A stretch of DNA of 48,627 nt from Ruminococcus sp. (GTDB taxonomy: Bacteria; Bacillota; Clostridia; Oscillospirales; Acutalibacteraceae), in NCBI GenBank assembly GCA_017404665.1, contig JAFRBX010000006.1, positions 1-48,627 of the forward strand, written 5' to 3'. Below, in pieces: positions 232 to 45,274 of this stretch. Below the pieces are notes generated by a model, which was given only the letters and a program-made list of their open reading frames with translations, had not been told where the DNA came from and searched no databases. The first letter of the stretch is position 1. Each line of letters begins with the position of its first letter. Position numbers and translations under genes: made by a program.

Positions 232-407
232 CAGTATTCCTCCTTCACTCGTACTTTCTTCACTTTTGCTTTCATCAGCTTTTCAAGGACTTCGTCTATC
301 GCATCTGTATAATGCCCCGTCATTATCAGCTCGTTTTTCTTGTTGATTAAAATGTTGATAATGGTTCTGCGCTCGTCATAGGTAAGATAAACATGATACT
401 TCTTCAT
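231..407 (-). CDS. 58-residue protein of the TnpV module
   Basis: A small gene between the DUF6809-like gene and tnpV, overlapping both by 3-4 bases (its ATG at 405-407 overlaps the upstream TGA; its TGA at 231-233 overlaps the tnpV ATG). GGAGG sits at the right distance upstream, inside the end of the preceding gene. The product starts MKKYHVYLTYDERRTIINIL and is basic and helical, with K/R-rich ends. I recall similar short proteins next to TnpV in clostridial mobile elements, but no function is known to me. The double stop/start overlap is the main evidence that it is real. Confidence 0.7.
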   Translation of the reverse strand: MKKYHVYLTYDERRTIINILINKKNELIMTGHYTDAIDEVLEKLMKAKVKKVRVKEEY

Positions 408-736
408 AGCCTATCCTCCTTCAGAGCGTCTTTATACGGTGCAGAATCGCTGACAAAGGTGTCATAGCAAAAATTTGCCCCTAATCTGAATCCGACGATA
501 AAAGCATCTAATTCCGATTCTCCCAATACGACTGCCCATGTGTTTACATAGGTAAGAAATGTTTCCTTTTCATCTCCGGTCAACCGTTCTGTGAGAGTTT
601 TCTCGGTGTCCGCAAGAATTGACATTTGCTTTTTCAGATAACTGTCTTTTCTAAATTCGCGCGATTGCGGATCAATGTTGCCGTAGTACAGCTCGGTAAT
701 GAAATTCTTTCCGATATCACGATTTTGATTGTTCAT
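404..736 (-). CDS. DUF6809-like small protein
   Basis: A 110-residue protein beginning MNNQNRDIGKNFITELYYGN. The motif ELYYGNIDPQ, followed by a helical region and a GFRLGANF segment near the C-terminus, matches the pattern of the gene at 27191-27475 (ELWYGNIDPH ... GFSLGVHL). I associate this with the DUF6809 family of clostridial mobile elements; its function is unknown. The ATG at 734-736 was chosen because ACCTCC at 745-750 is a good ribosome binding site on the minus strand. A longer frame to 844 would run through a hairpin and lacks such a site. It is the first gene of the three-gene minus-strand operon. Confidence 0.7.
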   Translation of the reverse strand: MNNQNRDIGKNFITELYYGNIDPQSREFRKDSYLKKQMSILADTEKTLTERLTGDEKETFLTYVNTWAVVLGESELDAFIVGFRLGANFCYDTFVSDSAPYKDALKEDRL

Positions 737-825
737 TTTATAAAACCTCCGTAGTAATTGAATTGCCCTACAATTACAACCGATCCGACTTAAATACAAA
801 ATATTTTTCAAAACTTCCTTATGTA

Positions 826-851
826 GTTGCATACTTTTATGCAACTTTTTT
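826..851 (+). terminator. Rho-independent terminator or attenuator upstream of the phage-like operon
   Basis: GTTGCATA at 826-833 and TATGCAAC at 838-845 form a perfect 8-bp stem with a 4-base loop, followed by six T. It points rightward, yet no plus-strand gene lies to its left in the window. It could be an attenuator in the leader of the terminase operon, or the leftover end of a host gene displaced by the minus-strand module. Confidence 0.65.
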
Positions 852-929: not shown

Positions 930-1415
930 GTGAAACCGAAAGAAAAGGAGTTTTGCCGTCTGATGACGGTATACGCCGACCCGGTACGGGCGGCGCGGGA
1001 AGCAGGGTTCAAGCATCCTGAGAAGGCTTGGTCTGAGCTTGCCGCGAGGGAGGAGATCGTCGGCGAGATCCGCCGCCGAAGCGAGAATATCCGCTCGATA
1101 TACGAGAGCACCGCTGTATGCGGAATGTACAGGCTCGCTTACGGCGGCGTGAGCGACGCATTGACCCTGCTGTACCGGGAGGAACTCAGCGCAGATGAAT
1201 TGAATAAACTCGATCTGCGGAATATTTCTGAGGTCAAGAGGACCGACAAGGGGCTCGAGGTCAAATTCTGTGACAGGATCAAGGCGGCTGAAAAGCTGAA
1301 GGAGTTGTCGGAAAGGGATACGCGGCAAGGAGGCAGTTCGGGGCTTCTGGATGCGATCCTGCTGTCTGCCGAGGCGCTCTCGAACCGCGGCGGGAGTGAT
1401 CCCGATGCGGTATGA
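930..1415 (+). CDS. Phage terminase small subunit
   Basis: This 161-residue protein is the probable DNA-recognition subunit of the packaging motor. It starts MKPKEKEFCRLMTVYADPVR with a helix-turn-helix-like segment (ADPVRAAREAGF ... EKAWSELAAREEI), as in PBSX XtmA-type small terminases. It continues into a charged helical region consistent with oligomerisation. The GTG start at 930 follows AGGAAAGGAAGG. The gene overlaps the terminase large subunit by 11 bases, the usual order and coupling for these two proteins. The assignment rests on size, position and the N-terminal pattern rather than an active site. Confidence 0.75.
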   Translation: MKPKEKEFCRLMTVYADPVRAAREAGFKHPEKAWSELAAREEIVGEIRRRSENIRSIYESTAVCGMYRLAYGGVSDALTLLYREELSADELNKLDLRNISEVKRTDKGLEVKFCDRIKAAEKLKELSERDTRQGGSSGLLDAILLSAEALSNRGGSDPDAV

Positions 1416-2655
1416 GCCTTTATCCGCCAAACAGCTGAGAGCAATGTTCTGGTGGGCAAACGGTTCGGGAACGGAGCATTATGACGCCGTGATCTGTGAC
1501 GGCGCAGTTCGCTCGGGCAAGACCTTTGCACTGTCGCTGTCCTTTGTGATGTGGGCAAGCCTTCGCTTTGACCGTGCGCTGCTGGGCTTTTGCGGCAAGA
1601 CGATCACAGCGCTCAGGCGTAATGTGATCATCCCCCTCTTGCCTTGCCTGAAGGAGCTCGGCTTTGACGTACGGGAATGCGTCAGCAGCAACCGCCTGAC
1701 GATTCGCTTTCAGGGTCACGAAAATACTTTTTTTCTGTTCTCGGGCAAGGATGAAGGCAGCGCTGCTCTGATACAGGGCGTCACGCTGTCGGGCGTGCTG
1801 TTCGACGAAGCGGCGCTGATGCCGCGTTCCTTTGTGGAGCAGGCTTTGGCGCGCTGTTCTGTCAGCGGTTCGCGCTTCTTCTTTAACTGTAATCCCGAAT
1901 ATCCCTCACACTGGTTTTACAGGGAATGGATACAGAACGCAGAGCGCAAGAACGCGCTGTACATCCATTTCCGCATGCGGGACAATCCCTCTCTTTCTCA
2001 GAAGATGCTCAGAAGGTATGAAAGCCTGTATACAGGCGCATTCTATCGGCGTTTTGTTGAGGGAGAATGGGTGAGCGTCTCGGGCGCTGTCTACCCCTTT
2101 ATGGGCGACAGCAGTATGTTCATCCCTCCTCCCGGCGGACCCTTTCAGGAATACTGTGTCTCCTGCGATTACGGCACGGTCAATCCTACGTCGATGGGTC
2201 TCTGGGGGCGTAAGGGCGATATCTGGTATCGCCTGCGCGAGAGCTACTATGACGCGCGCAAGGAAGGCAAGAGCAGAACGGATGAGGAGCACTATGATTC
2301 TTTGAGAGAATTATTGAGCGAGCTTGAGCCGACCGCTGTGATCGTCGACCCGTCCGCCGCCAGCTTTATCGAGGTGATCGAGCGCCATGCGCAGTACCCT
2401 GTCGTCAGGGCGGATAACAATGTTATCGACGGGATCCGCAGGACGAGTCAGGCGCTCAGAGACGGCGAGATCGTGATCTGCGACTCATGCACCGACGCTA
2501 TCCGTGAGTTTTCACTCTACCGCTGGGACGAGAACAAGCCGATGGATACGGTGATCAAGCGCGACGATCACGCCATGGATGACATACGCTATTTTGTCAG
2601 TTACATAAAGGCAAATGAGGAAAAACTCAATTTTGCCTTTATCGAACGAGGATGA
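1405..2655 (+). CDS. Phage terminase large subunit
   Basis: ATPase/nuclease that cuts concatemeric DNA and drives it into the prohead. The 416-residue product has a Walker A-like loop GAVRSGKT (residues 33-40), a Walker B-like LFDEAAL segment near residue 130, and a C-terminal half with DYGTVNPTS, IVDPSAASF and DDHAMDDIRY. These carry acidic residues expected of the RNase H-like nuclease of PBSX/XtmB-type terminases. The length is normal for the family. ATG 1405 was chosen over the in-frame upstream ATG because GGCGGGAG precedes it and homologous proteins start close to the first lysine-rich helix. No frameshift or missing motif is visible, so it looks functional. Confidence 0.93.
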   Translation: MRYEPLSAKQLRAMFWWANGSGTEHYDAVICDGAVRSGKTFALSLSFVMWASLRFDRALLGFCGKTITALRRNVIIPLLPCLKELGFDVRECVSSNRLTIRFQGHENTFFLFSGKDEGSAALIQGVTLSGVLFDEAALMPRSFVEQALARCSVSGSRFFFNCNPEYPSHWFYREWIQNAERKNALYIHFRMRDNPSLSQKMLRRYESLYTGAFYRRFVEGEWVSVSGAVYPFMGDSSMFIPPPGGPFQEYCVSCDYGTVNPTSMGLWGRKGDIWYRLRESYYDARKEGKSRTDEEHYDSLRELLSELEPTAVIVDPSAASFIEVIERHAQYPVVRADNNVIDGIRRTSQALRDGEIVICDSCTDAIREFSLYRWDENKPMDTVIKRDDHAMDDIRYFVSYIKANEEKLNFAFIERG

Positions 2656-2687
2656 CCGCTTTTTCGGTCAAGCAAGGAGGTAAGATC

Positions 2688-3821
2688 TTGCGAATATTTT
2701 CGAAAAGAAAAAGTCCCCGTCCGCCCGAGGTGCAGACCTGCACAACGGCGGATAGGGGCGTCATTCCTCCGTTTTACTCCATTGAACAGCCTGCACAGCT
2801 GAGGCTGTATCGCGAGCTCAGAGAAAAGGTGCCGGTTATCGATGCGGCGATCATGAAGCTGGTGCGTCTGGTGGGCGAATTTCGTGTCGTATGTGCCGAC
2901 GAGACTGCTCAAAAGGCGATGGATCATTTTACATCACGGGTTTCTGTCGGCGGTACCGGTACAGGGCTGTCCGCATTTGTTTGCACTTACTTTGACCAGC
3001 TGCTGACCTGCGGCAAGGCGGTCGGCGAAATCGTGACCTATGAGGACGGCAGCATCGCGGCGCTGTATAACGCGCCCGACGGAGCGGTGACGCTGAAACA
3101 GGGCGACAGTCCTGTGGATGTGCGCATATTCCGCGACTGTACCGGCACACAGGAAATCGCGCGCCCCGAGCTGATCTGTGTGACGCTGCTGAATCCGCAG
3201 CCCGGCACCCTGCGCGGCAATTCGATCCTGAGCGGACTGCCGTTCGTCAGCGAGCTGCTGTTGAAGATCTTTGAATGCGTCGGTCAGAACTTTGAGCGTG
3301 CGGGCAATGTGCGCTTTGCCGTCACTTATAATCCTCCTGCCGGAGCGGGGGCAGTCAACGCCAACCGACGCGTGAAGGAGATCGCACAGGAATGGAGCCG
3401 CGCTATGCGCGATAAGAACAGAGTATGCGACTTTGTTTCGGTCGGCGACGTCAGCATCAAGGCGATCGGCGCAGACAGTCAGATTCTCGACTGCGATATC
3501 CCGATCCGGCACGTGCTGGAGCAGATCGTGGCGAAGCTGAGCGTACCGCCGTTCCTGCTGGGGCTGTCGTGGTCCTCAACGGAGCGGATGTCCGCGCAGC
3601 AGGCGGATATCCTGACCTCGGAGCTGGAATATTACCGCATGCTGCTCTCGCCTGTGATCGAGAAGATTGCACGGGTTTATCTAAGCGCAGAGCAACTCAA
3701 TCCCGAGGTAACGGTGAAGTGGAGCAATATCAGCCTGCAGGATGAAACAGAGCTGGCGAGCGCGCGGCTGGATAACGCGCGAGCGGCTCAAATCGAACAA
3801 AGCATGGAGGTGAACGGGTGA
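2688..3821 (+). CDS. Phage portal protein
   Basis: The portal forms the dodecameric ring at the capsid vertex through which DNA passes and to which the tail attaches. The product (about 377 residues) has portal-like features: an N-terminal helical part, a central LICVTLLNPQPGTLRGNSIL segment, and a C-terminal region RHVLEQIVAKLSVPPFLLGL followed by SAQQADILTSELEYYRMLL. That last pattern is typical of SPP1/PBSX-type portals. The TTG at 2688 has a perfect AAGGAGG 7 bases upstream. An ATG at 2652 in the same frame overlaps the terminase stop and is the alternative. The gene overlaps the next by 4 bases. Confidence 0.88.
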   Translation: MRIFSKRKSPRPPEVQTCTTADRGVIPPFYSIEQPAQLRLYRELREKVPVIDAAIMKLVRLVGEFRVVCADETAQKAMDHFTSRVSVGGTGTGLSAFVCTYFDQLLTCGKAVGEIVTYEDGSIAALYNAPDGAVTLKQGDSPVDVRIFRDCTGTQEIARPELICVTLLNPQPGTLRGNSILSGLPFVSELLLKIFECVGQNFERAGNVRFAVTYNPPAGAGAVNANRRVKEIAQEWSRAMRDKNRVCDFVSVGDVSIKAIGADSQILDCDIPIRHVLEQIVAKLSVPPFLLGLSWSSTERMSAQQADILTSELEYYRMLLSPVIEKIARVYLSAEQLNPEVTVKWSNISLQDETELASARLDNARAAQIEQSMEVNG

Positions 3822-4768
3822 AATACGGACAGGTATTAAAAAACGCAGAAAGCGTTGATTCGGTAAAAGAAATGGAGCTGGTCAACCGCTATTCACGCCG
3901 TGAGCTCAGCGCCGACGAGGTCTATCTCTTTTCGGTGGCGCTGTGCGATAACGATGTCGACCGCGACTATGAGCGCTTTACGGTCGAATCGCTGTTTGTG
4001 CTGGAAAAGCTCTTTGTCGGAAAGACCGGCATCATTGACCACGATCCGACAGCCAAGAACCAGAAGGCGAGGATCATTTCCTGCAAGGTCGAGAGCGTGG
4101 ACGGCGCCTATACCGCGAACGGCGATCAGCTTTTCCGATTGACGGCGCGGGCGTATATCCGCCGCACTCCGGGCAACGCAGAGCTGATCGAGGCGATCGA
4201 AGCCGGCATCGTCAAGGAGGTATCCGTCGGCTGCAGTGTGGGTCATACGATCTGCTCGATCTGCCGCAGCGATATGCACTCGCCGCAGTGCGGGCATCAG
4301 AAAGGCAGAGAATACGACGGAGAGCTGTGCTTCGGGGAGCTTTGCGAGCCGAAGGACGCGTATGAATTCAGCTTTGTTGCTGTGCCCGCACAACGCTCGG
4401 CAGGCGTGATGAAAGGATACAAGGAGAAAGATATGAATGAGATTTGCAAGTCCCTTTGCGGGGACAATGAGGTAACGCTCTCGAAGAACGAGGCGGCTCG
4501 TCTGAAGGAGTATATCGAACGTCTGGAAAGCGACAGCGACTGCGCCAAAGCGTATCGCAAGGAACTGAGCGAACAGCTCAGAACTGCCCTCAGAGAAAAG
4601 GGCGTGGCGCTCGACTTTGCGGTGGAAAACTGCATTATCAAAAAACTCAGCATCGCGGAAGCGCAGGCGCTGCTGAAGGCGCTCAGACGCAGGGAGCAAA
4701 AGGTTGTTTCGCAGCTGGGCGGCACAAAAGCCGACGCTTCTGTCGGCAACACGGAATTCAGAATTTAA
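3818..4768 (+). CDS. Prohead protease with C-terminal scaffold-like region
   Basis: A 316-residue protein that probably processes the capsid during maturation and acts as scaffold. Residues 1-200 resemble HK97-type prohead proteases. TGIIDHDPT carries a candidate catalytic His and EVSVGCS a candidate Ser, followed by EFSFVAVPAQRSAGV, which closely matches the family's conserved end motif. An unusual Cys-rich insert (CSICRSDMHSPQCGH) could bind a metal ion. Residues 205-300 are charged and probably helical, as in scaffolds. GTG start at 3818 follows GGAGG and overlaps the portal stop. Located between portal and capsid, the canonical place. Confidence 0.85.
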   Translation: MKYGQVLKNAESVDSVKEMELVNRYSRRELSADEVYLFSVALCDNDVDRDYERFTVESLFVLEKLFVGKTGIIDHDPTAKNQKARIISCKVESVDGAYTANGDQLFRLTARAYIRRTPGNAELIEAIEAGIVKEVSVGCSVGHTICSICRSDMHSPQCGHQKGREYDGELCFGELCEPKDAYEFSFVAVPAQRSAGVMKGYKEKDMNEICKSLCGDNEVTLSKNEAARLKEYIERLESDSDCAKAYRKELSEQLRTALREKGVALDFAVENCIIKKLSIAEAQALLKALRRREQKVVSQLGGTKADASVGNTEFRI

Positions 4769-4780
4769 CGGAGGTAAAAC

Positions 4781-5110
4781 ATGAATATCAGTTTTGCAGG
4801 TTATAAGGAAAATGTCCTGACCTTTGAATGTACCGATACTGTCGCTGCGGGCGACCTTGTCAAAATGTCCGCTTCGGGCAAGGTCACCAAGGTCAGCGCC
4901 AATGATGGATTTATCGGCAAGTGCGTCGGCGTCAGCGGCGGTTATGCCGCCGTTCAGCTCGACGGCTATATGGTAGCGGCTAAATCCGGCACTGTCAACG
5001 TCGGCTACAACAAGCTGGTCGCCGCGTCGTCCGGCGTTAAGACCGCTGAGAGCGGTATCGACAGACTGGTCGTATACAGCGACGATACTACCGTCGGCTT
5101 TATTCTGTAA
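4781..5110 (+). CDS. Capsid decoration-like protein
   Basis: A 109-residue protein rich in Gly, Val, Ala and Ser, predicted to be all-beta, beginning MNISFAGYKENVLTFE. It lies directly between the protease and the major capsid gene with a GGAGG site at 4770. Small beta proteins in this slot are often head decoration or stabilisation proteins (gpD/DUF2190-like). The repeating pattern of short beta strands supports this, but there is no diagnostic motif, so the role is inferred from position and composition. Confidence 0.6.
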   Translation: MNISFAGYKENVLTFECTDTVAAGDLVKMSASGKVTKVSANDGFIGKCVGVSGGYAAVQLDGYMVAAKSGTVNVGYNKLVAASSGVKTAESGIDRLVVYSDDTTVGFIL

Positions 5111-5121
5111 GAGGAGCGAAA

Positions 5122-6132
5122 ATGATGGCTAAATTTGAGAATATTAATCTGGAAAAGGGGATGTACCAGACCGGCCGCACCCTGACCGAGATCCTGGAGG
5201 AAATGGACCCCAGCGAGAATTATAAGGGCTCGGCGCTAGAGGGACTGGACGCATTTTCACGTCAGCTCAAGCGCTTTGATATCAAGGTGAGCGGCAAGGG
5301 CTCCGACACCATCGAGAAGTTTTTCGCGACATCTAACTCGGCGGCGCTCTTCCCCGAGTATGTCAGCCGAGCGGTCAACGCCGGCAGAGAGGAAGCAAGC
5401 ATGCTGGACGATATCGTCGCGACCGTCACGAAAATCGATGGGATGGATTATCGCTCCTGCACCTCGAATATGACCGACGATGACAAGAGCCTCAAGCGCG
5501 TTGCGGAGGGCGCGTTCATTCCGGTAACCGAGATCAAGACCAACGACAATCTGGTGCGTCTGCACAAGCGCGGCAGAATGCTGGTCGCAAGCTACGAGGC
5601 GCTGCGCTTCCAGCGCATCGATCTCTTTACCGTGACTCTCAAGCAGATCGGCGCGTATATCGCCCGCTCTCAGATGGCGGACGCTGTCGACGTTATTATC
5701 AACGGCGACGGCAACGCGAACTCCTGTGCGAGCGTCAGCCCTGCCTCTGCCGGAAGCCTGAGCTATGCCGATCTTATCAGCATGTGGACGTCGCTCTCTC
5801 CCTTTGAGCTGAACACTGTGCTGGCTTCTACCTCTGCCATGACCGCGCTGCTGACCATGACCGAGATGAAGGACGCGGTCGCGGGTCTGAACTTCCAAGG
5901 CAGCGGCAAGATGATCACACCGCTGGGCGCTAATCTGCTGCATACCACAGCGCTGACCGGCAGCAGCCTTATCGGTCTGGATAAGAACTGCGCGCTGGAG
6001 ATGGTCGTCGCAGGCGACGTCGCTGTCGATTATGACAAGCTCATCGACCGTCAGCTCGAAAAGGCTTCTGTCAGCTGTATCGCAGGCTTTGCGAAGATCT
6101 ATACCGGCGCTGCCAAGAAAATGACTTATTAA
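5122..6132 (+). CDS. Major capsid protein
   Basis: A 336-residue protein placed after the protease and decoration protein, with the length expected for an HK97-fold capsid subunit. A charged N-terminal arm (residues 1-60) is followed by segments consistent with the spine helix (YVSRAVNAGREEASMLDDIV), the E-loop region with basic residues, and an A-domain (GANLLHTTALTGSSLIGLDKNCALEMV ... YDKLIDRQLEKASVSCIAGF). The final segment resembles the conserved capsid end in Bacillota prophages. ATG 5122 follows GAGGAG; a second ATG is adjacent. No interruption is visible. Confidence 0.85.
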   Translation: MMAKFENINLEKGMYQTGRTLTEILEEMDPSENYKGSALEGLDAFSRQLKRFDIKVSGKGSDTIEKFFATSNSAALFPEYVSRAVNAGREEASMLDDIVATVTKIDGMDYRSCTSNMTDDDKSLKRVAEGAFIPVTEIKTNDNLVRLHKRGRMLVASYEALRFQRIDLFTVTLKQIGAYIARSQMADAVDVIINGDGNANSCASVSPASAGSLSYADLISMWTSLSPFELNTVLASTSAMTALLTMTEMKDAVAGLNFQGSGKMITPLGANLLHTTALTGSSLIGLDKNCALEMVVAGDVAVDYDKLIDRQLEKASVSCIAGFAKIYTGAAKKMTY

Positions 6133-6146
6133 GGAGGTCGTGACAC

Positions 6147-6503
6147 TTGCGCTTAAAAGAGATCATTGAACGTTTTACGCTGGTGTCGGGCTTTGAGATG
6201 AAGGATGTGTCGCGCTGTCTGCCGATAATCGGGGGCTGTAAGGCGTATTTTGAGAGCCTGATCCCTGAGCTGAGTGAAAACGATCTGCGCCGGGCGGAGC
6301 ATGCCTGTGCGGTGTACGCGTTTTATCGCGTCAGTCAGATGGGACGCTTGGATGATCTGCAATCATTCAAGGTCGGCGACGTGCAGATGAGTGTGGAGGC
6401 GATCGGCGAGGCGGCGAAGAAGCTGTGGGACGCCGAACGTGAAAGCATATCCGATATCGTGGATTTCGGCGGGAGATTCGCCTTCAGGAGCGTGAGCGTA
6501 TGA
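6147..6503 (+). CDS. Head-tail connector protein
   Basis: A 118-residue mostly helical protein, starting at TTG 6147 nine bases after a strong AAGGAGG. The position just after the capsid gene, the size, and the helix-rich pattern (LKEIIERFTLVSGFEMKDVSR ... DDLQSFKVGDVQM) fit a gp6/gp15-type adaptor that binds under the portal ring. No active site is expected. It overlaps the next gene by 4 bases. Confidence 0.65.
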   Translation: MRLKEIIERFTLVSGFEMKDVSRCLPIIGGCKAYFESLIPELSENDLRRAEHACAVYAFYRVSQMGRLDDLQSFKVGDVQMSVEAIGEAAKKLWDAERESISDIVDFGGRFAFRSVSV

Positions 6504-6856
6504 GGATGACGAGTTATCTTGACCGTGCGCTCATCCGATTCGGCAACACCGTCCGCATCCGCCGCGACGGCAGGACAGAGGTCGTGAAGGCCTTTGTCCA
6601 GCCGCTCAGGCGACGTCACCGTCTGTATATCAATGATCGGTATATCCCTGCGGGCTATTTTGATAACCGCTATCTGCTGTATATCGGACCCGGCGACCGT
6701 CCGCTGTATGACGGGATGCGGATCACTTGTAACGGCGCGGGATATACGGTGGTGACTGCGGAGATATTCGCAGCGCATGACGAGGATATCTATGTATGGG
6801 CAATCCTGATGCCCGTAAGCCGGGGCAGGGAGGATTATTATGACGACTTCAACTGA
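6500..6856 (+). CDS. Head closure/stopper-like protein
   Basis: A 118-residue beta-rich protein that starts with ATG overlapping the previous TGA. Its order (second small gene after the capsid) and its strand-rich pattern with basic patches (IRFGNTVRIRRDGRTEVVKAF ... RPLYDGMRITCNGAGYTVV) suggest a head-completion or stopper protein that plugs the portal channel. This is inferred from gene order; I see no family signature. Confidence 0.55.
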   Translation: MRMTSYLDRALIRFGNTVRIRRDGRTEVVKAFVQPLRRRHRLYINDRYIPAGYFDNRYLLYIGPGDRPLYDGMRITCNGAGYTVVTAEIFAAHDEDIYVWAILMPVSRGREDYYDDFN

Positions 6857-7277
6857 GAACAGGATTGACGAGTGGATCGCGCGCGTCAAGCATTACGGCG
6901 CGATGAAAGCCTTTGCGTTTCTTCCCGGGTTTCCCGCACATAAAACGCCGAACCCCGTCACAAAATATACTGTAGCTGTTGTCGACAGCGAGCAGAAGGT
7001 CAGCCGCTTTTTTATCGGGAACCGTATCGGTGTGGCCAAATACGGAAGGCTGTATGAAACAGAACTTCGCCTGAGAGTCTATGCTCCCGAGGGGAGCTCC
7101 GGTTCAGCGCTGCTGAGAGCGAGCGCTCTGTTGATGGACGCGCTGGAGCATGAGGACAGCGGACGGATGATAAACTGCCTTTCACTGTCGGGTATCGACT
7201 TCGACACAGCCTCCCGCACTGAGTACAGAGACGTTGTTGTGCGGTTGAGCATCATCACAGAGGAGGCGGCGGCATGA
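6840..7277 (+). CDS. Tail completion/terminator-like protein
   Basis: A 145-residue protein overlapping both neighbours (17 bases upstream, 4 downstream). The alternating strands and helices (KYTVAVVDSEQKVSRFFIGN ... ETELRLRVYAPEG ... LLRASALLMDALE) fit the alpha/beta fold of tail terminator proteins that cap the tube at the head end. Its position immediately before the tube-like gene supports this. The assignment is by order and shape only. Confidence 0.55.
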   Translation: MTTSTENRIDEWIARVKHYGAMKAFAFLPGFPAHKTPNPVTKYTVAVVDSEQKVSRFFIGNRIGVAKYGRLYETELRLRVYAPEGSSGSALLRASALLMDALEHEDSGRMINCLSLSGIDFDTASRTEYRDVVVRLSIITEEAAA

Positions 7278-7654
7278 ACGAACTGAGGATTGTCCGCGGT
7301 ACAGACGTTAAGCTGTATGTGGATCAAACGCCGCTTTTCGGAGTGACTGCGTTCAGCGCGGTGCAAAAGCCGCTGTATCATGAGGTGTATGAATATCTGA
7401 GTGCAAAGCCCTGTGAAAGGATCTCTCAGGGGACGCGGTATGAACTGACGCTCAGCGTGATGGCGCTGTTCGATAAGCAGCTGCCGTCACAGTCCGTCTT
7501 TACGCTGAGCGTGGTTGACAGTGACACAACATATTACTATGAAGGCTGCCGTGTCATCAAACAAAAAACGGCGGTCAAGGGCAGTGAAAACGCCGCTGAG
7601 GTGTTCACCTTAGTAGCGGACAGCATGAGAAGGCAGGTGGCTGAGAGTGAATGA
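7274..7654 (+). CDS. Tail tube-like protein
   Basis: A 126-residue beta-rich protein beginning MNELRIVRGTDVKLYVDQTP. Size and strand pattern resemble XkdM-type tube subunits of PBSX-like tails: an early short strand pair, a long central strand RYELTLSVMAL, and a late segment YYYEGCRVIKQKTAVKG. In PBSX-like clusters a 430-470 residue sheath gene precedes the tube and a tape-measure gene follows it. Here both are missing. If the tube call is right, the tail would be very short. The call could also be a second terminator-type protein. Confidence 0.5.
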   Translation: MNELRIVRGTDVKLYVDQTPLFGVTAFSAVQKPLYHEVYEYLSAKPCERISQGTRYELTLSVMALFDKQLPSQSVFTLSVVDSDTTYYYEGCRVIKQKTAVKGSENAAEVFTLVADSMRRQVAESE

Positions 7655-7772
7655 GAATACGGTTGTCTGGGAAATCATCTACGACAGCGAAGAGCTTTCC
7701 CGGGAGATGGAACGTGACGCGCGGCGCTACAACAAAGCATTTACGGAGGAAGAGGAGGTCAAGCTCATATGA
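7647..7772 (+). CDS. 41-residue protein in the tape-measure slot
   Basis: A small gene starting at GTG 7647 (GAGAGTGAATG, overlapping the previous stop) and ending in a TGA that overlaps the ATG of the LysM gene. The product, VNENTVVWEIIYDSEELSRE then MERDARRYNKAF and an EEEE stretch, is highly charged and probably helical. It exactly fills the gap between the tube-like and LysM genes with coupled overlaps at both ends, which is why I accept it. In related clusters this place holds the tape-measure chaperone and tape-measure genes. It might be a remnant of the former. Confidence 0.55.
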   Translation: MNENTVVWEIIYDSEELSREMERDARRYNKAFTEEEEVKLI

Positions 7773-8287
7773 AGTTGGCGCCTATGAGATTTGACGGGCT
7801 CAGTATGCGTTATAATCCAGAAAAGCTCGGAATCAGCGGGAAGAATCATATCTGCGAGTACGCGTCGCCCTGCTGTGAATCGGACAGCGAAAAGCTTAAC
7901 CGCGAGCTGTGCCGGATATCGGGCGTAGGAGAACTCTGCGGAGAGGATTGCATCGCACAGTACAGGAAGCTTGAAAAAATGCAGATCAGCGGTAAAAGAG
8001 CTAAGCTGGTGCTGCCGCGTATGCAGCCGCTGTACGCCTATCTCAAGGAGCTGGAGCTGACGGCAAAGCCGGTGGATAATGTGCTTTCCTACCGCTTTTT
8101 GTTTGTTGAGGCGCTGAGTCCTCGCCCTGAGAAAACAGGCAAGGAGTATTACCTGACGGCGGCAGGGGAGAGCTTGTGGGATATCGCTTATCGATATGAT
8201 GTGCCGATCGAGCGCTTGGTGGATTTGAATCCGCACATCCCTCTGATCGACGAGCTGGATGAGAAAGTGAGGGTGAGAGTATGCTGA
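7769..8287 (+). CDS. LysM-domain tail/baseplate protein (XkdP-like)
   Basis: A 172-residue protein whose C-terminal 45 residues form a LysM-like module (EYYLTAAGESLWDIAYRYDV ... RLVDLNPHI). Such modules bind glycan or act as structural adaptors. The N-terminal part holds three Cys residues in a CEYASPCCES segment, and a region resembling the pattern of XkdP/gp53 proteins that sit between tail tube and hub. It overlaps the preceding gene by 4 bases and the next by 7. The place right before the hub gene is as in PBSX. Confidence 0.72.
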   Translation: MKLAPMRFDGLSMRYNPEKLGISGKNHICEYASPCCESDSEKLNRELCRISGVGELCGEDCIAQYRKLEKMQISGKRAKLVLPRMQPLYAYLKELELTAKPVDNVLSYRFLFVEALSPRPEKTGKEYYLTAAGESLWDIAYRYDVPIERLVDLNPHIPLIDELDEKVRVRVC

Positions 8288-9222
8288 GATGTGTGCTGCG
8301 TGACGTCAGCGGACAAAGCATCATCGTTCCTCAATTGCTTAACCTGCAGGTGAACATCGATGAGAACGTCCCCGCTGATTCGCTGTATGCGGTGATGGCA
8401 TACATGCCGACGGATGAGCTTGTCGGCGTCACCTTGTATCAGGACGATGAACAGGTTTTCACGGGGATCATGGACGAGCAGGAGCATGTGAGTGATGAGA
8501 CAGGAGAATACCTGAAGATATCCGCCCGCTCCCCGGCGGCGCATTTACTGGATAACGAGGCAATGCCCTGCGCATATGACCATCCGTCGCTGAGCCTGAT
8601 TTATGATAGGTATGTCAAGCCCTTCGGCATTACAATGACGGATCACGGCGACGCGGTATACTTCGGCGAACTGAACATTCTCAAGGGCTCTTCCTGCTGG
8701 AGAGCGGTGAAGCAATTCTGCAACGCCTGCTTTTCGTCGGTTCCGCGCGTCAGCTCGACCGGGGTGCTGTATCCCGAGGGGATCGTCAATGATCGGGAGA
8801 TCGTCTTCGGCAGGGACGGCGTGCGCTATACTGCGATGCGTGAGTCGCAAAAGCGCTGTGAGGAGATCTCCGCTGTTTATGTCAAAGCATCCGGCTCGGG
8901 CTCCTACACGCTGCCGGTCAGAAACGAGGATGCGGAGGCTCGCGGCGTAAGGCGTGTGAGATATCTCAACGCCATGCTGACGGAAAGCCCCATGCGCTGC
9001 GCCGATACAATGATCGCAAACTCAGCGAAAAAAGCCTATGCGATCGAATTGCGCTGTCCGTCCTGCCTGCTCGGCAAAGAGGGCAGCAGAGCGACGCTGA
9101 AAGATACAGCGAGCGGCAGAAAAAGCGATTTGTATATCAGCGCCGTTCATTACCGGATGACAAAGGACGGCGCATACAGCGACGTGACTTTGAAAAGGAG
9201 GCAGAAAAATGTGGATCAATGA
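8281..9222 (+). CDS. Baseplate hub protein (XkdQ/gpD-like)
   Basis: A 313-residue protein that would form the trimeric hub onto which the spike is mounted. Residues 1-80 give short beta strands (LQVNIDENVPADSLYAVM ... VTLYQDDEQVFTGIMDEQ) like the first barrel of gpD/gp27-type hubs. The middle contains FCNACFSSVPRVSSTGVLYP, and the C-terminus returns to beta strands (DLYISAVHYRMTKDGAYSDV) as in XkdQ. It lies between the LysM protein and the spike-like gene and overlaps both. Assignment is by fold pattern and order. Confidence 0.7.
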   Translation: MLRCVLRDVSGQSIIVPQLLNLQVNIDENVPADSLYAVMAYMPTDELVGVTLYQDDEQVFTGIMDEQEHVSDETGEYLKISARSPAAHLLDNEAMPCAYDHPSLSLIYDRYVKPFGITMTDHGDAVYFGELNILKGSSCWRAVKQFCNACFSSVPRVSSTGVLYPEGIVNDREIVFGRDGVRYTAMRESQKRCEEISAVYVKASGSGSYTLPVRNEDAEARGVRRVRYLNAMLTESPMRCADTMIANSAKKAYAIELRCPSCLLGKEGSRATLKDTASGRKSDLYISAVHYRMTKDGAYSDVTLKRRQKNVDQ

Positions 9223-9547
9223 ATATGTGAGCGGTCGTTCCTTCGGAGTAAATACGGCGACTGCGGTTGAGATTCGCGCTGCCAACAACGGCAGCGTAGC
9301 GGTCAGCTCCACGAGAGATTTCAGCGAGCTCCCGGTAATCGCTCCCGCGGGTATCGTCTACGTGCCCGTGACAGGCTCGCCTACGATGGTCATGGAGGGC
9401 GCGGGAGGAGCGGTGTGCTTAGGCGTGATTGCCGCACCGCCGTCCTCTTTGGAGGCGGGTGAGCTTATGCTTCACTCAGCAGGAGGCGCCAGCATCGTGC
9501 TGAAAAACGACGGCAGGGTGTTGATCAACGGCAGGGAGGTCAGCTGA
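9209..9547 (+). CDS. Baseplate spike-like protein (gpV-like)
   Basis: A 112-residue Gly/Ala/Val-rich beta protein. The C-terminal segment SIVLKNDGRVLINGREV is the pattern seen at the end of gpV-type membrane-puncturing spikes, where repeating short strands build a triple-stranded helix. The protein is shorter than gpV of P2 (about 211 residues) and has no obvious OB-fold beyond residue 60. ATG 9209 overlaps the hub gene, and its stop overlaps the next ATG. Confidence 0.65.
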   Translation: MWINEYVSGRSFGVNTATAVEIRAANNGSVAVSSTRDFSELPVIAPAGIVYVPVTGSPTMVMEGAGGAVCLGVIAAPPSSLEAGELMLHSAGGASIVLKNDGRVLINGREVS

Positions 9548-9891
9548 TGGACGTCAGGGTATCAAACGGCGATATCTTCATGACTGTATCGGGAGATTAC
9601 TGCTATATCACCGGTATCGAGGAGGCTGTACAGCGCGTGCGCCTCTCGGCGCTGACATTCAAAGGCGAATTTATTTATGACAGAGAGCTGGGTACGGATT
9701 ACAGCGGTATTGACGCATACGATGATATGCTGTGCGAAAAGCTCGAAGCGGTGCTCCGGGAAAGCTGTGCCGACATCTGCGATACTCAGGTTGAGGTGCT
9801 TTCCTGTGAGAACCGGATCGCGGTGCTGAAAGTGATATATCGCGATCGTGAAACAACAACGGAGGTGGATTTGTCTGGACTCATACAATGA
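9547..9891 (+). CDS. Baseplate wedge protein, gp25-like (XkdS)
   Basis: A 114-residue protein resembling gpW/gp25 wedge subunits: an early ITGIEEAVQRVRLSALTFKG segment, then a conserved-looking GEFIYDRELGTDYSGI, then helices and a strand pair (IAVLKVIYRDRETTTEVDLSG). In contractile tails gp25 lies in the inner baseplate next to gpJ/gp47, and here it directly precedes the baseplate J gene with 44 bases of overlap if the first in-frame ATG of that gene is used. Confidence 0.75.
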   Translation: MDVRVSNGDIFMTVSGDYCYITGIEEAVQRVRLSALTFKGEFIYDRELGTDYSGIDAYDDMLCEKLEAVLRESCADICDTQVEVLSCENRIAVLKVIYRDRETTTEVDLSGLIQ

Positions 9892-10933
9892 TATTTTGGA
9901 GAGAATGGTCGCTTCCTATGAAGCGGAAAGCGGGTTTTCTCCGCAAAACGAATCGGACGTCATGCTGCGGCTTCGCGTACTGGCGGGAGAGATCTTTCGG
10001 GAACGTACATACGCAGAATTTATCATGCGGCAGATGTTCCCCGCGACCGCTGTGGGTGAGTATCTCGACAGGCACGCCCGACAGCGCGGTCTGAGCCGCA
10101 AAAACGCAACGCTCGCACATGGCAGTGTGACCTTCACCGTCGTTGAGGGCGAGCATGAAGAGATTCGGATACCGACAGGAACGCAGGTCAGCACCGGCGA
10201 CGGTCTTTTGCGTTTTGTCACCGATAATGACGCGGTAATTGACGCACAGTCACAGACGGTCTCTGTCAACGTGACCGCGGTGCGGGAAGGGAGCGCATAT
10301 AACGTGCTTGCCGAAACGATTGGACTTATTGTCACCCCGGTGCTGGGCGTTGCCTCGGTTGCGAACAGCGCCGCTTTCAGCGGGGGATCTGATGTCGAGG
10401 ACGACGAACAGCTGCGTAAACGTGTCATTGACAGCTACTGTAATATCATCAACGGCGCGAACGCCGCCTATTATCGCTCGATCGCGCTGTCGGTGGACGG
10501 CGTATACTCCGCTTCGGCTGTTGGCTGCGGCAGAGGCGCGGGAACCGTGGACGTCTATGCCTGCGCGAAAGGCGGCGCGCTTTCTGCTGATAAAATCAGC
10601 GAGATACAAGCGCTGCTGGATGAAAAGCGCGAGCTGAATGTTGACGCGAAGGCGTTCAGTCCGACGGCGATGAACATCAATTTGTACATTCGCCTGACGG
10701 TATCGGAGGGCTACGATTTCAGCACGGTCGCGGAAGCAGTGAGAATCGCCGTAACGGATTATGTCAACGGGCTGGGTATCGGAAACGATCTGCGCTTGAG
10801 CAAGGTAGGAGAGGTCATTTATCATATCGAGGGTGTAGAAGATTACAAATTTCTTGAAAGCTACGGCTCTGATAGAGACGTACCGCTGACGCGCTTTGCG
10901 AAAGCGAATACGATCACGGTGAGGGATGAATGA
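9848..10933 (+). CDS. Baseplate J protein (gp47/JayE family)
   Basis: A wedge protein of contractile-type baseplates, 361 residues as drawn. It shows FPATAVGEYLDRHARQRGLSR, then a beta domain with IRIPTGTQVSTGDGLLRFVT, and a helical/strand region with GGSDVEDDEQLRKRVIDSY, all typical of baseplate J. The first in-frame ATG (9848) lies inside the previous gene. A CTG at 9875 sits 9 bases after a GGAGG and would give the family-like start (L)DSYNDILERM, so the true start may be this rare codon. The gene overlaps the next by 4 bases. Confidence 0.88.
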   Translation: MKQQRRWICLDSYNDILERMVASYEAESGFSPQNESDVMLRLRVLAGEIFRERTYAEFIMRQMFPATAVGEYLDRHARQRGLSRKNATLAHGSVTFTVVEGEHEEIRIPTGTQVSTGDGLLRFVTDNDAVIDAQSQTVSVNVTAVREGSAYNVLAETIGLIVTPVLGVASVANSAAFSGGSDVEDDEQLRKRVIDSYCNIINGANAAYYRSIALSVDGVYSASAVGCGRGAGTVDVYACAKGGALSADKISEIQALLDEKRELNVDAKAFSPTAMNINLYIRLTVSEGYDFSTVAEAVRIAVTDYVNGLGIGNDLRLSKVGEVIYHIEGVEDYKFLESYGSDRDVPLTRFAKANTITVRDE

Positions 10934-11496
10934 TGACGGTATTCGAAAGACTGAGGGCGTCATTATCGCCTGTCGGCATCTATGACAGCGATGCCGAGGT
11001 GCTGTCCGTAGAGCTGAAAGCCTATGCGGATGAGCTGGAGCTGCTGTATGATCAGCTCGGCGCGATGTTCAGAGAACGATTCATCGAGACGGCACAGGAT
11101 GCAGGGCTTGCGGCGTATGAGTCGATGTTCGGTCCCGTGAGATCAGAGGAAAGCGTCGAGGGGCGCCGCGCGATGCTGCAGCTGCGCATGAATCTCGGCG
11201 GGGGAGATTTTACACCCGCCGGGATACGCAGGGCGCTCGACAGCTTGGGACTGGAATACACGATCAGCGAGTTCCCGCATATCGGCAAGCTCAATGTGAC
11301 CGCGACTGCGGATTACACACAGGCGCAGCAGATATGGATCAGACGGGAAGTGGAAAAGATCGTCCCCGCGCATGTCGAGTTCCAGCTGACGTTCAACAGT
11401 CTGACATGGGCACAGATCGATGCATTTGACAGAACCTATCAAACGATTGACGGGGCTGATCTGACATGGGCGCAGATCGATAACCGTACATATTAA
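10930..11496 (+). CDS. DUF2313/YmfQ-like tail protein (XkdT/gp48-like) with C-terminal repeat
   Basis: A 188-residue protein following baseplate J, as gp48-type proteins do in Mu- and PBSX-like clusters. It has an N-terminal helical half (YADELELLYDQLGAMFRERF ... EGRRAMLQLRMN) and a GGGDFTPAGIRRALDSLGLE motif characteristic of the family, then a strand-rich end. The last 30 residues contain a duplicated LTWAQID unit. It is probably the adaptor between baseplate and fibre. Spacing to the fibre gene is 19 bases with an AAGGAA site. Confidence 0.72.
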   Translation: MMTVFERLRASLSPVGIYDSDAEVLSVELKAYADELELLYDQLGAMFRERFIETAQDAGLAAYESMFGPVRSEESVEGRRAMLQLRMNLGGGDFTPAGIRRALDSLGLEYTISEFPHIGKLNVTATADYTQAQQIWIRREVEKIVPAHVEFQLTFNSLTWAQIDAFDRTYQTIDGADLTWAQIDNRTY

Positions 11497-11515
11497 TAAC
11501 AGAAAGAAGGAACCT

Positions 11516-11980
11516 ATGGCAACCAGTAACTATACACCGAATCTTCACCTGAGCGCGTGGCTGGATTCCGACCGACCCAAAAGGGCGGATTTTGTGTCGG
11601 ATAACAGCATCATCGATACACAGCTGGGCGGACATATCGCCGACAGCACTATCCATGTGACGTCTCAGGAAAAGGCAAAGCTCACGGAGCCGTTCATATT
11701 CAATGTGTATTCCGGCACGGGAGAGAGCTCGCGCACCATCAGCCTGAGCTTTCAGCCGAAGCTGGTGATCGTCTTCAAGCGCGGCGTGCCGTTCGTGACC
11801 TGCAGCGGCAGCGTCAATAACGTGAATGCTGCCGTCGGATGTTACGGACACGGCTGCAGCGCGGGTATCGGCATCTCATCGAGCGGCGTGGTGGTAACGC
11901 AGGATGCGGCGGCATCGGACGGCGTCAAGGTGTGCCTGAATGAGAGCGGCGCACAGTATTCGATCGTTGCATTTAAATAA
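11516..11980 (+). CDS. Short tail fibre-like protein
   Basis: A 154-residue Ser/Gly/Val-rich protein, last in the operon. It starts MATSNYTPNLHLSAWLDSDR, the usual opening of Bacillota tail fibre proteins, followed by HIADSTIHVTSQEKAKL, another motif of such fibres. The second half is beta-rich with Cys residues and could be a small receptor-binding head. It is far shorter than typical fibres (300-700 residues), in keeping with the reduced character of the operon. Confidence 0.68.
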   Translation: MATSNYTPNLHLSAWLDSDRPKRADFVSDNSIIDTQLGGHIADSTIHVTSQEKAKLTEPFIFNVYSGTGESSRTISLSFQPKLVIVFKRGVPFVTCSGSVNNVNAAVGCYGHGCSAGIGISSSGVVVTQDAAASDGVKVCLNESGAQYSIVAFK

Positions 11981-12003: not shown

Positions 12004-12036
12004 AAGAGGGCTGTCGTCACATGACAGCCCTCTTTG
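12004..12036 (+). terminator. Strong terminator ending the phage-like operon
   Basis: A perfect 12-bp stem AAGAGGGCTGTC (12004-12015) / GACAGCCCTCTT (12023-12034) with a 7-base loop, followed by a short T run. The minus strand also leaves a pyrimidine-rich tail, so it can serve the convergent gene at 12059 too. Confidence 0.85.
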
Positions 12037-14957: not shown

Positions 14958-17174
14958 ATGTTGAGAAAATGTTTATCGATGTTATTGGTGCTCATCGTGC
15001 TGATTGGTACTTTCAGTTCTTTTGTGTTATCAGTATCTGCCGAAGAAGTAGATATATCTGCTGTTGGCGCCGACGACTATCCGTATAGAGGCGGAGCTAT
15101 AGATGCTGTTGACCAATGGCAATTGTTTACGAGAGAGTGTACATCGTTCTGTGCGTGGAGATTGAATAACAATAACGGAGTTGCATTTACCAACTGGTAC
15201 GGTGGCGTACGATGGGGTAATGCAGGTAACTGGGGCTACGCAGCTCAAAGCATAGGGATCACCGTCGACATGAATCCCGCTCTGGGCTCAATTGCATGGT
15301 GGTCAGGCGGACATGTCGCATGGGTATCAGGTGTGAGCGGGGATAATGTGGATATTGAAGAGTATAACAATCCCGGTGGAAGCTATAATTATAACTCACG
15401 AACAATTAACAGATACAATGTTACAGGGTATATACATATTAAAGATTTAAATAAGCCTGCTAACGCGTGGATCAGTGCTTCACATAGGGCTCTGCCGATC
15501 GGCTGGGATATTACCTTTACTTTCGGGGCAGATAACGCCACTAATTATTGGATCGGTATTGACCAAAATGGCTCCCGCATTATCACAGAGGAAGTTTCAT
15601 CCGGCAAGAGCTATCATTTTACCGAGACAGGAAGTTACAGCGCCTATGTAACTGCAGGAAACTCTGCGGGCAGCATTGATTCCAATAGAGTAGAGTTTAC
15701 TGTTTATCAAGCCCGCAATATCGGAGAGAAGTTCACGGCGGCTATATTACACACGAAAAGCGGGGTCGCCGTGACGGTGGACGATAGCGATAATGTAGTT
15801 GTGAAGCAATACAAAGGCACAGATGATCAGTTGTGGATTTTTGAGAGAGAAGGAGCATACAAGCGTTATAAAATTACGAATGTAAAAACAGGTAAATGCT
15901 TAGATGTTTCCGGCGGCGGTACGGTCGACGATACCAATATTCAAGTTTGGAGGGATAACGGCGCGACCGCACAAAGATGGTATCTGCGCCCAAACGGCTC
16001 AGGATATTCACTAGCGCCCATGTGCGCGGCGCATGGCGGTATCGATATGGTAGGAGGCAATTCATCAGACGGCAATAATATCGCTATGTGGTATTGTGTC
16101 GAGGGCAATGGTAATCAAATATTCACTTTGCAGATGATCGATACTCCCACTCATACCAGCACCTTTAACGGTCACAAATATGAGTTGTACAATGTATCTG
16201 TCGCATGGAAAGAAGCATTCCAATTCTGTGAACAGCAGGGCGGTCATCTGGTGACGATAACATCTCAGGAAGAACAAAGCTTTATCAACAATATGCTTAC
16301 TCATGCGGCAAATAAAAGGGTATGGGCAGGAGCTGTGGATGTTTATACCGAAGGAAAGTGGCAATGGATAACCGGTGAATCGTTCAGTTATAAAAACTGG
16401 GGTTCCGGCGAGCCAAATAACTCAGGTGACGAAGACTATTTAATGTTGAGTAAGAGTGACGGAGCGTGGAACGATGTAGCAGACATCTTCAATAATACTG
16501 ATTACGGGTATTCCTTTATCTGTGAATACGACGATAGTATCGATCCGGCACGCGCTAAATTGGAAAAAACCTTCGATTATAACAATCATCGTTATGAAAT
16601 CTACTCGGGATCTTTAGACTGGTTGAGCGCAAAACAGTTCTGCGAGCAAAAGGGCGGTCATTTGGTAACGATCACAACAGCAGGTGAAAACAGTACGATT
16701 GTCAATAATGTAAAAGCCTTGAATCATGAAGCGTATTGGCTTGGTTTGACCGACGTGGAACACGAAAGTAAGTGGCACTGGATTACTGATGAAGTGTATT
16801 CTTATAAAAACTGGAACGATAATGAACCGAACAACAGCGGGGGAATAGAGGATTATGCTGTGTACGTTCTTGCAAGCGGAAAATGGAACGATTTATCCGG
16901 ACGGGCTGTATTAGATACCGATATCGGCTTCATCTGCGAATATGATGTTATTCCCATTCTCGGTGACGCGGACGGCGACGGGGCGGTAACATCGGTTGAC
17001 GTGACCGAAATCCAGCGCAGTATTGCGCATGTCAGTACCGGTATCGACAAGGTTGTACTGATGAACGCCGACGTGGACGGCAACGGCGCTTTGGAGATCA
17101 TCGACGCGACATATATCCAGCGATATCTGGCACAGATGAATGTGCCGTATGAGATTGGAAAAGCAAAAGGATAA
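14958..17174 (+). CDS. Secreted CHAP peptidase with ricin-like, two C-type lectin and dockerin domains
   Basis: A 738-residue exported protein. Order: signal peptide (1-28); CHAP cysteine amidase/peptidase domain (about 40-165) with candidate Cys61 in RECTSFCAW, His119 in GGHVAWV and an acidic/Asn residue in DIEEYNN; an Ig-like linker (about 170-250); a ricin-B-like trefoil (about 257-390) with QLWIFE, KCLDVSGG and QRWYLRP repeats; two C-type-lectin-like domains (about 400-525 and 537-662), each with GGHLVTIT, EPNNSG and a final FICEYD; and a type I dockerin (about 668-735) with two calcium loops, DADGDGAVTSVD and DVDGNGALEIID. It probably cuts peptidoglycan or peptides while docked on a cohesin-bearing surface complex. 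AAGGAGG precedes ATG 14958. Confidence 0.9.
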   Translation: MLRKCLSMLLVLIVLIGTFSSFVLSVSAEEVDISAVGADDYPYRGGAIDAVDQWQLFTRECTSFCAWRLNNNNGVAFTNWYGGVRWGNAGNWGYAAQSIGITVDMNPALGSIAWWSGGHVAWVSGVSGDNVDIEEYNNPGGSYNYNSRTINRYNVTGYIHIKDLNKPANAWISASHRALPIGWDITFTFGADNATNYWIGIDQNGSRIITEEVSSGKSYHFTETGSYSAYVTAGNSAGSIDSNRVEFTVYQARNIGEKFTAAILHTKSGVAVTVDDSDNVVVKQYKGTDDQLWIFEREGAYKRYKITNVKTGKCLDVSGGGTVDDTNIQVWRDNGATAQRWYLRPNGSGYSLAPMCAAHGGIDMVGGNSSDGNNIAMWYCVEGNGNQIFTLQMIDTPTHTSTFNGHKYELYNVSVAWKEAFQFCEQQGGHLVTITSQEEQSFINNMLTHAANKRVWAGAVDVYTEGKWQWITGESFSYKNWGSGEPNNSGDEDYLMLSKSDGAWNDVADIFNNTDYGYSFICEYDDSIDPARAKLEKTFDYNNHRYEIYSGSLDWLSAKQFCEQKGGHLVTITTAGENSTIVNNVKALNHEAYWLGLTDVEHESKWHWITDEVYSYKNWNDNEPNNSGGIEDYAVYVLASGKWNDLSGRAVLDTDIGFICEYDVIPILGDADGDGAVTSVDVTEIQRSIAHVSTGIDKVVLMNADVDGNGALEIIDATYIQRYLAQMNVPYEIGKAKG

Positions 17175-45262: not shown

Positions 45263-45274
45263 TGGGATACTGTT

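Follow-up and report, generated by a model that had tools for sequence, protein, structure and literature searches.

The alphaproteobacterial gene transfer agent (GTA) RcGTA goes back to a longer-tailed phage of siphovirus type, and capsid-forming phage-inducible chromosomal islands (cf-PICIs) are mobile, helper-dependent elements without a baseplate. In BalMu-1, a PBSX/Mu-like phage, the tail genes follow the series XkdK-XkdM-XkdN-TMP-XkdP-XkdQ-XkdS-XkdT, where TMP denotes the tape-measure protein. Here we describe an operon at positions 930-11980 of contig JAFRBX010000006.1 from a Ruminococcus sp. genome (assembly GCA_017404665.1); the stretch analysed, positions 1 to 48,627 of the contig, is termed the window. 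Eighteen plus-strand open reading frames (ORFs) run from terminase to fibre in 11.05 kb, with stop/start overlaps at most junctions and no broken frame, as an earlier sequence-only reading had noted. Like cf-PICIs, the operon encodes heads and packaging functions without a full tail; in contrast to RcGTA, its baseplate is of contractile type and its tail is almost gone. With PBSX and BalMu-1 it shares the order of tube (XkdM), LysM protein (XkdP), hub (XkdQ), gp25 (XkdS) and baseplate J (XkdT), which agrees with the PBSX-like order recognised earlier. It differs from them in having no XkdK sheath in the cluster, no XkdN, no 1441-residue tape measure between tube and XkdP, and no holin/amidase module. 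We consider it probable that the operon arose by domestication of a contractile-tailed phage, has passed down mostly vertically in this order of Clostridia under selection to keep it, and makes a GTA-like particle. Below, f1 is the family of the source genome, which we take to be the GTDB Acutalibacteraceae (NCBI places Candidatus Ruminococcus equi in Oscillospiraceae), and f14 and f26 are other families.

The sequence-only reading knew of nothing in Bacillota with this layout. That claim needs correction: PBSX is known, and a GTA-like element of Faecalibacterium, seemingly of other ancestry, was published in January 2026 (PMC12946183). That paper (Nat Commun 2026) describes GTA-like packaging in Faecalibacterium, Gemmiger, CAG-115, R. 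callidus, Onthomonas and Christensenellaceae. It reports FpGTA in 12/12 Faecalibacterium genomes examined by its authors and, among the metagenome-assembled genomes (MAGs) searched there, the candidate operon FpGTA I in Faecalibacterium only. FpGTA has 40-nm heads holding 8.4-8.9-kb DNA and no visible tail, and is called podovirus-like. FpGTA resembles the window operon as a compact phage-derived operon of gut Clostridia with TerS, TerL, portal and capsid genes and no replication genes, and the lack of a visible tail on its particles is like what we predict for the window operon. It differs in being podovirus-like, in its head-scaffolding gene and in a second lysis/baseplate operon. The operon lineage itself was not encountered in the open-licence PubMed Central literature searched, where we also found no paper combining GTA with Oscillospirales, or Acutalibacteraceae with prophage and capsid.

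To place Faecalibacterium in our data, we used a 16S probe. It matched none of the 43 operon-bearing genomes, none of 10 genomes of one f26 genus, and 3 of 247 f26 genomes; these three matched at four loci, all of which carry 16S. One of them, G313, fits two further primers as well, one perfectly and the other with a single mismatch, and is probably Faecalibacterium. The window capsid profile, which recovered the positive control G257, found no match in eight genomes from the three genera with probe matches. Likewise, none of the 18 operon profiles matched the TerL loci of G313 (L222-L224) at E 0.01; L222 and L223 look podovirus-like from their ORFs. Weighing against a clean separation from FpGTA, G521 carries a TerL close to that of the window (L226, 5e-148), as well as a contractile-type cluster (L225) with matches to baseplate J (8e-30) and gp48 (4e-10) and weak matches to the LysM, fibre and capsid proteins; G453 has a weaker TerL match (1e-15). 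On this comparison, made with probable Faecalibacterium genomes in place of FpGTA's own sequences, FpGTA is probably a separate domestication, seemingly from another phage lineage.

Inheritance and selection

A capsid profile (alignment A1, 20 rows, all f1) matches in single copy 139 of the 150 genomes of the genus and 73 of the 75 of good quality, one match having an internal stop. With the portal protein as a single-sequence query, 43 of 295 genomes of the order give one match each and none gives two. Trees of TerL, portal and capsid combined and of rpoB were compared for 41 of these 43 genomes (G014, without rpoB, and G189, without a TerL match, were left out). The two trees have 24 of 38 splits in common, with at most 2 in 500 label shuffles, and within f1 they have 8 of 16, with at most 3 in shuffles. 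Mantel correlations between operon and rpoB are 0.68 overall and 0.74 in f1 (p 0.001), and those of single genes range from 0.43 (capsid, all genomes) to 0.80 (portal, f1). The best reading of this strong but incomplete congruence is that the operon is ancient and has been inherited mostly vertically.

The genomic surroundings were compared across 104 loci. In relatives of the window clade, a GerA-type spore germination gene lies upstream, and genes for a secreted protein, a PrsA-like protein and Mfd lie downstream (the names 'secreted protein' and 'PrsA-like' are our reading of the sequences); in the window itself, the upstream GerA position falls beyond the contig edge. In other clades the operon stands beside polynucleotide phosphorylase or, by sequence reading, HflX, and a Pfam tally of the flanks includes GerA, TRCF, PNPase and PPDK domains. 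Host neighbours are constant within clades. A full prophage at the same site, which the sequence-only reading had named as evidence that would overturn it, was not found among relatives; those that share the neighbours have this compact operon at the site. No integrase or lysis gene appeared in the 25 shown of 39 PHROG families (E 1e-10) assigned to 115 of 189 listed flanking ORFs; the same scan gave three transposase families with one member each. A DUF6809 gene (404-844, minus strand) adjoins the operon start in the window and has no match in the other loci searched.

Ratios of non-synonymous to synonymous substitution (dN/dS) were obtained by the Nei-Gojobori method and pooled per gene over 11 close species pairs chosen from among the capsid matches, in which some loci enter twice and not every gene is represented in each pair. 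Pooled values run from 0.08 (capsid) to 0.25 (hub) over all 18 genes, with single-pair values of up to 0.44; the pooled ratios lie far below one, and the neutral ratios that would have spoken for decay were not found. The 41-residue gene 11 gives 0.14, from six pairs of which one has saturated dS. The same gene order, which the sequence-only reading proposed to look for in relatives, recurs there more than chance would explain: 61 of 80 named loci include the stretch from TerL to gp48, and in 52 of them every one of the 16 core profiles matches unsplit. The other nine (L088, L090, L113, L118, L126, L150, L153, L155 and L156) may reflect sequencing errors, divergence or true loss. At L144, the stopper gene is split into ORFs of 71 and 54 residues (3919-4279) by a frameshift or a sequencing error.

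A class-wide draw gave capsid-profile matches in 11 of 391 genomes, 3 of them outside the order. In two of these three (L325 and L328), an ORF of 1761 or 1781 residues takes the tape-measure position, and from ORF sizes we regard these two as siphovirus-like prophages. Relatives are encoded in at least 592 stretches of the named collection; the 80 kept for analysis were those nearest to an f1 profile, and f1-like operons are therefore over-represented among them. They are mainly MAGs titled Ruminococcus, Clostridia or Clostridiales, several are titled after rumen or gut samples, and one is Candidatus Ruminococcus equi (L092). IMG/VR yielded 398 stretches with a relative; of the 80 fetched, 38 lie on contigs close to the operon in size (10.0-14.5 kb), and 23 are sheathed.

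Searches of a phage collection of 50,697 records with the portal and capsid gave no close relative outside unannotated, unverified faecal scaffolds. Baseplate J matches 288 of its records, all below 60% identity and, among the 15 listed, at no more than 32.6%. On these grounds we rejected recent horizontal acquisition from a phage. The scaffolds (L228, L229 and L230; MT835508, MT835952 and MT835769) are unverified 'Bacteriophage sp.' entries from human faeces that carry this operon type, sheathed in L230, and may be host DNA, either chromosomal sequence wrongly labelled as phage or DNA that was formerly packaged.

Gene content and the shortened tail

Genes were named from PHROGs and Pfam searches, with additional comparison of profiles with the PDB for genes 7-9 and 14. 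The operon begins with the small terminase TerS (gene 1, 930-1415; PF03592, 8e-6, barely over the cut-off) and the large terminase TerL (gene 2, 1399-2655, longest ORF from 1351; phrog_2, 7e-49; PF03237, 3e-14). TerL residues K57, D152, E153, D273, D333, D406 and D410, which from terminase motifs we take to be the Walker and nuclease (catalytic) residues, are invariant across all 109-112 aligned sequences. The portal (gene 3, 2652-3821; phrog_30703, 5e-116; PF04860 under the cut-off) is followed by two genes named from weaker matches and gene order, a probable head protease/scaffold (gene 4, 3818-4768; phrog_16951, of unknown function, 3e-82; phrog_4523, 'major head and protease protein', 6e-5) and a probable head decoration protein (gene 5, 4781-5110; phrog_4588, 'virion structural protein', 2e-9). 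The major capsid protein (gene 6, 5122-6132) has firm matches to phrog_3922 (6e-98) and PF25209 (4e-14).

Genes 7-9 (6147-7277) have no family match in Pfam or PHROGs. Because their profiles gave no PDB match worth naming, the names head-completion/connector protein (gene 7, 6147-6503), head-completion/stopper protein (gene 8, 6500-6856) and tail terminator/neck protein (gene 9, 6840-7277) are positional. The first two are conserved families among relatives, and the third is fused to the tube in some relatives and lost in others. Gene 10 (7274-7654) encodes the tail tube protein, a role supported by the tail-tube fold of its product, as had been suggested, and gene 11 (7647-7772) encodes the 41-residue protein in the tape-measure slot, with a C-terminal ...RDARRY... 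motif.

The baseplate genes comprise the LysM protein in the XkdP position (gene 12, 7769-8287; PF01476, 1e-5), the hub in the XkdQ position (gene 13, 8281-9222; phrog_177, 8e-14), a probable spike (gene 14, 9209-9547; phrog_25991, of unknown function, 6e-11; profile match to PDB 9ki1, 'baseplate puncturing device gp45', E 0.0028), a gp25-like sheath initiator/wedge in the XkdS position (gene 15, 9547-9891; phrog_120, 4e-7; PF10934 under the cut-off at 0.011), baseplate J (XkdT; gene 16, 9848-10933; PF04865, 2e-52) and a Mu gp48-like wedge (gene 17, 10930-11496; PF10076, 2e-13). Database searches thus back the names of TerS, TerL, portal, capsid, LysM protein, hub, gp25-like protein, baseplate J and gp48-like protein. 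The short putative fibre (gene 18, 11516-11980) is named by order, with PF24060 under the cut-off at 0.005. Just beyond it, a terminator-like inverted repeat (12004-12034) had been taken as a perfect terminator of the operon, which is only partly right; the repeat is real, but its T-rich tail was scored on the minus strand, the strand of the convergent gene. PHROGs and Pfam identify no sheath, long tape measure, lysis, integrase or replication gene among the 18 genes, in line with the absences first noted, and the tape-measure slot holds the 41-residue gene only.

Sheathed members of the lineage exist in other families. A sheath of 339-351 residues is kept in eight f14 and three f26 loci (PF04984/PF17482 confirmed on three), with a tube of 126-131 residues in 10 of the 11. 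The lineage sheath profile built from these (A4, 11 rows) matches 14 of 23 non-f1 genomes and none of 20 f1 genomes, the source genome included; unrelated sheaths or long tape measures elsewhere in the genome were not searched for. No sheath match lies between the capsid and LysM genes in 73 named loci.

In the eight sheathed f14 loci, the tape-measure slot holds a protein of 163-215 residues, which in all eight ends in RD[AS]RR[YF]DG plus a few residues; the end of gene 11, ...RDARRYNKAF..., is closely similar. Because of the shared slot and motif, we read gene 11 as a remnant of the f14-type slot protein, which by its position would formerly have been a tape measure. Neither the BalMu-1 tape measure nor that of a Monoglobales phage has the motif, nor is it seen in the slot ORFs of the three sheathed f26 loci (L064, L066 and L075), which stand outside the count that follows. 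A small motif-bearing ORF occupies the slot in 75 of 89 compact loci and is missing in 14, by a pattern drawn post hoc. A shuffle control (57 of 75 versus 1.2 expected) is indicative only, since the pattern was post hoc and the 75 tails had been chosen with it.

Within f1, the 16 loci with a baseplate J match form a graded series. Terminator and tube are separate in four (the window, L039, L046 and L048) and lie in one frame in four others (L040 and L047 by both profiles, L063 by the tube profile only, L060 by eye). One locus has a stopper-tube fusion without terminator (L044), one has a terminator without tube (L065), and six have neither terminator nor tube (L042, L043, L045, L053, L054 and L055). 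Among the named loci, 13 of 73 have a single ORF of 226-260 residues in place of terminator and tube, matched by both profiles in 11 of the 13 (one of the 13, L125, is probably from the same genome as f1 locus L040). A terminator-fused tube could hardly polymerise past one ring. Together with the sheathed relatives in other families, this graded loss supports the proposal of the sequence-only reading that the reduction was selected.

Some loci have the head genes without a recognisable baseplate. Four f1 loci give no baseplate J match: L041, whose contig ends soon past the capsid, and L049, L061 and L062 (genera g13 and g16), where head genes are present, no baseplate match is found and other genes follow. 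The f26 loci L050, L051, L052, L056, L057 and L059 carry the same head genes and no baseplate J match; after the neck, several have a gene of ~310 residues, and g47 loci have genes of ~180 and ~360 residues. In that f26 clade, the head genes seem to be combined with another kind of tail.

The predicted particle and competing explanations

In the mechanism that we propose, the host would switch on the operon, and TerS and TerL would fill the capsid, by way of the portal, with headfuls of host chromosome; two neck proteins would close it off. The neck would be linked through a terminator ring and a single tube ring, or very few of them, to a baseplate of LysM protein, hub, spike, gp25, J and gp48 with a short fibre. 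A tail of one or a few rings is our best reading of the gene set, the ring number being a conjecture from it. With neither a sheath nor a long tape measure there would be no contraction, and DNA would therefore leave passively, as in short-tailed phages. Release would rely on lysis genes outside the operon, and an unlinked lysis locus is likely. Particle assembly, packaging of host DNA and delivery to kin are predicted from the genes, through which the particle is known here.

A GTA-like particle fits this gene set of motor, capsid, portal, neck, baseplate and fibre, which has descended mostly vertically and includes no mobility genes. The cluster has phage structural and terminase genes and no integrase or replication genes, and vertical inheritance, if incompletely congruent, goes with purifying selection in the host lineage; GTA function is plausible on these grounds. 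More tentatively, and with the odds somewhat against it, domestication may have produced a new virion architecture, in which a DNA-filled head is joined almost directly to a contractile-type baseplate, with a single tube ring fused to the terminator in some lineages, no tube in others, and the slot protein shrunk to a plug of ~40 residues, serving as a gene-exchange machine across an order of gut and rumen Clostridia.

Several observations weigh against the GTA-like reading. The portal query found no match in 6 of the 26 genomes from f1 and in 252 of the 295 from the order, and the operon site differs between clades. Tree congruence is incomplete, as the eight of 16 splits in f1, the Mantel r of TerL in f1 (0.50) and that of the capsid overall (0.43) illustrate. 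Flanking host genes have dN/dS of 0.00-0.15 (12 comparisons, four pairs), and the operon lies at or above most of these values; the ratios indicate that it is under constraint, mostly weaker than that on its neighbours. The model does not account for gp25, a sheath initiator retained without a sheath, which may just keep the baseplate wedge in one piece. Genes for lysis, regulation or uptake were not identified, none having been sought genome-wide, and the particle, its packaged DNA and the expression of the operon are predictions.

An operon that is domesticated without serving gene transfer would also be under purifying selection on baseplate, LysM protein and fibre, and the PBSX-type gene order recalls a particle that, according to PMC12946183, does not inject the DNA it packages. 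A bacteriocin-like or protein-delivery particle, with DNA as ballast as in PBSX, is accordingly the alternative that we take most seriously, although we think it rather unlikely: the lineage sheath that would drive contraction was not found in the 20 f1 genomes searched, and a headless tailocin has no use for the presumed catalytic residues that TerL keeps. Heads without a complete tail set, and distant capsid relatives beside tape-measure-sized ORFs in genomes of another family, would suit a satellite-like or minimal mobile element that, in the manner of cf-PICIs, borrows tail parts from a helper phage and adds its own heads and baseplate. We give this little credence, given that the operon has its own baseplate and tube, that no integrase or excision gene occurs among its 18 genes and no integrase in the families shown by the flanking scan, and that it is present in one copy per genome, with clade-constant host neighbours and an rpoB-like tree.

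A particle encoded at two loci, with sheath, tape measure and lysis genes elsewhere in the genome, has a precedent in the FpGTA I/II split, where the second operon, according to PMC12946183, carries baseplate, fibre, holin and endolysin. It appears quite improbable here in view of the f1 genomes, all 20 negative for the lineage sheath profile (a result confined to that profile), and of the small motif-bearing ORF that fills the slot in most compact loci by the post hoc pattern. The lack of sheath, tape measure, lysis and integration genes might also be expected of a defective prophage in ordinary decay; its low dN/dS, the 52 of 61 unsplit operons, its near-universal presence in the genus and its antiquity make this the least credible explanation, and we rejected it on the dN/dS values, unsplit frames and prevalence.

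Other features of the window and implications

Two further features of the window were noted. An AT-rich region (39709-46732) encodes a DndF protein that at its C-terminus matches the end of DndG; DndH comes next, divided between two ORFs (profile positions 1-1162 and 1171-1631), and the region is by these matches a fused and split Dnd restriction module. The third gene downstream of the operon (14958-17174) encodes a protein of cellulosome type that combines a peptidoglycan-cutting CHAP domain with ricin-B-type lectin, C-type lectin and dockerin domains.

Few GTAs are known outside Alphaproteobacteria, and the operon family described here supplies candidate genes for related families of gut Clostridia. 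The series from sheathed through sheathless and terminator-tube fused to tubeless operons is a natural experiment on which tail parts of a DNA-delivery particle are dispensable. As the operon is near-universal in one gut and rumen genus, such a particle would bear on gene flow in those communities.

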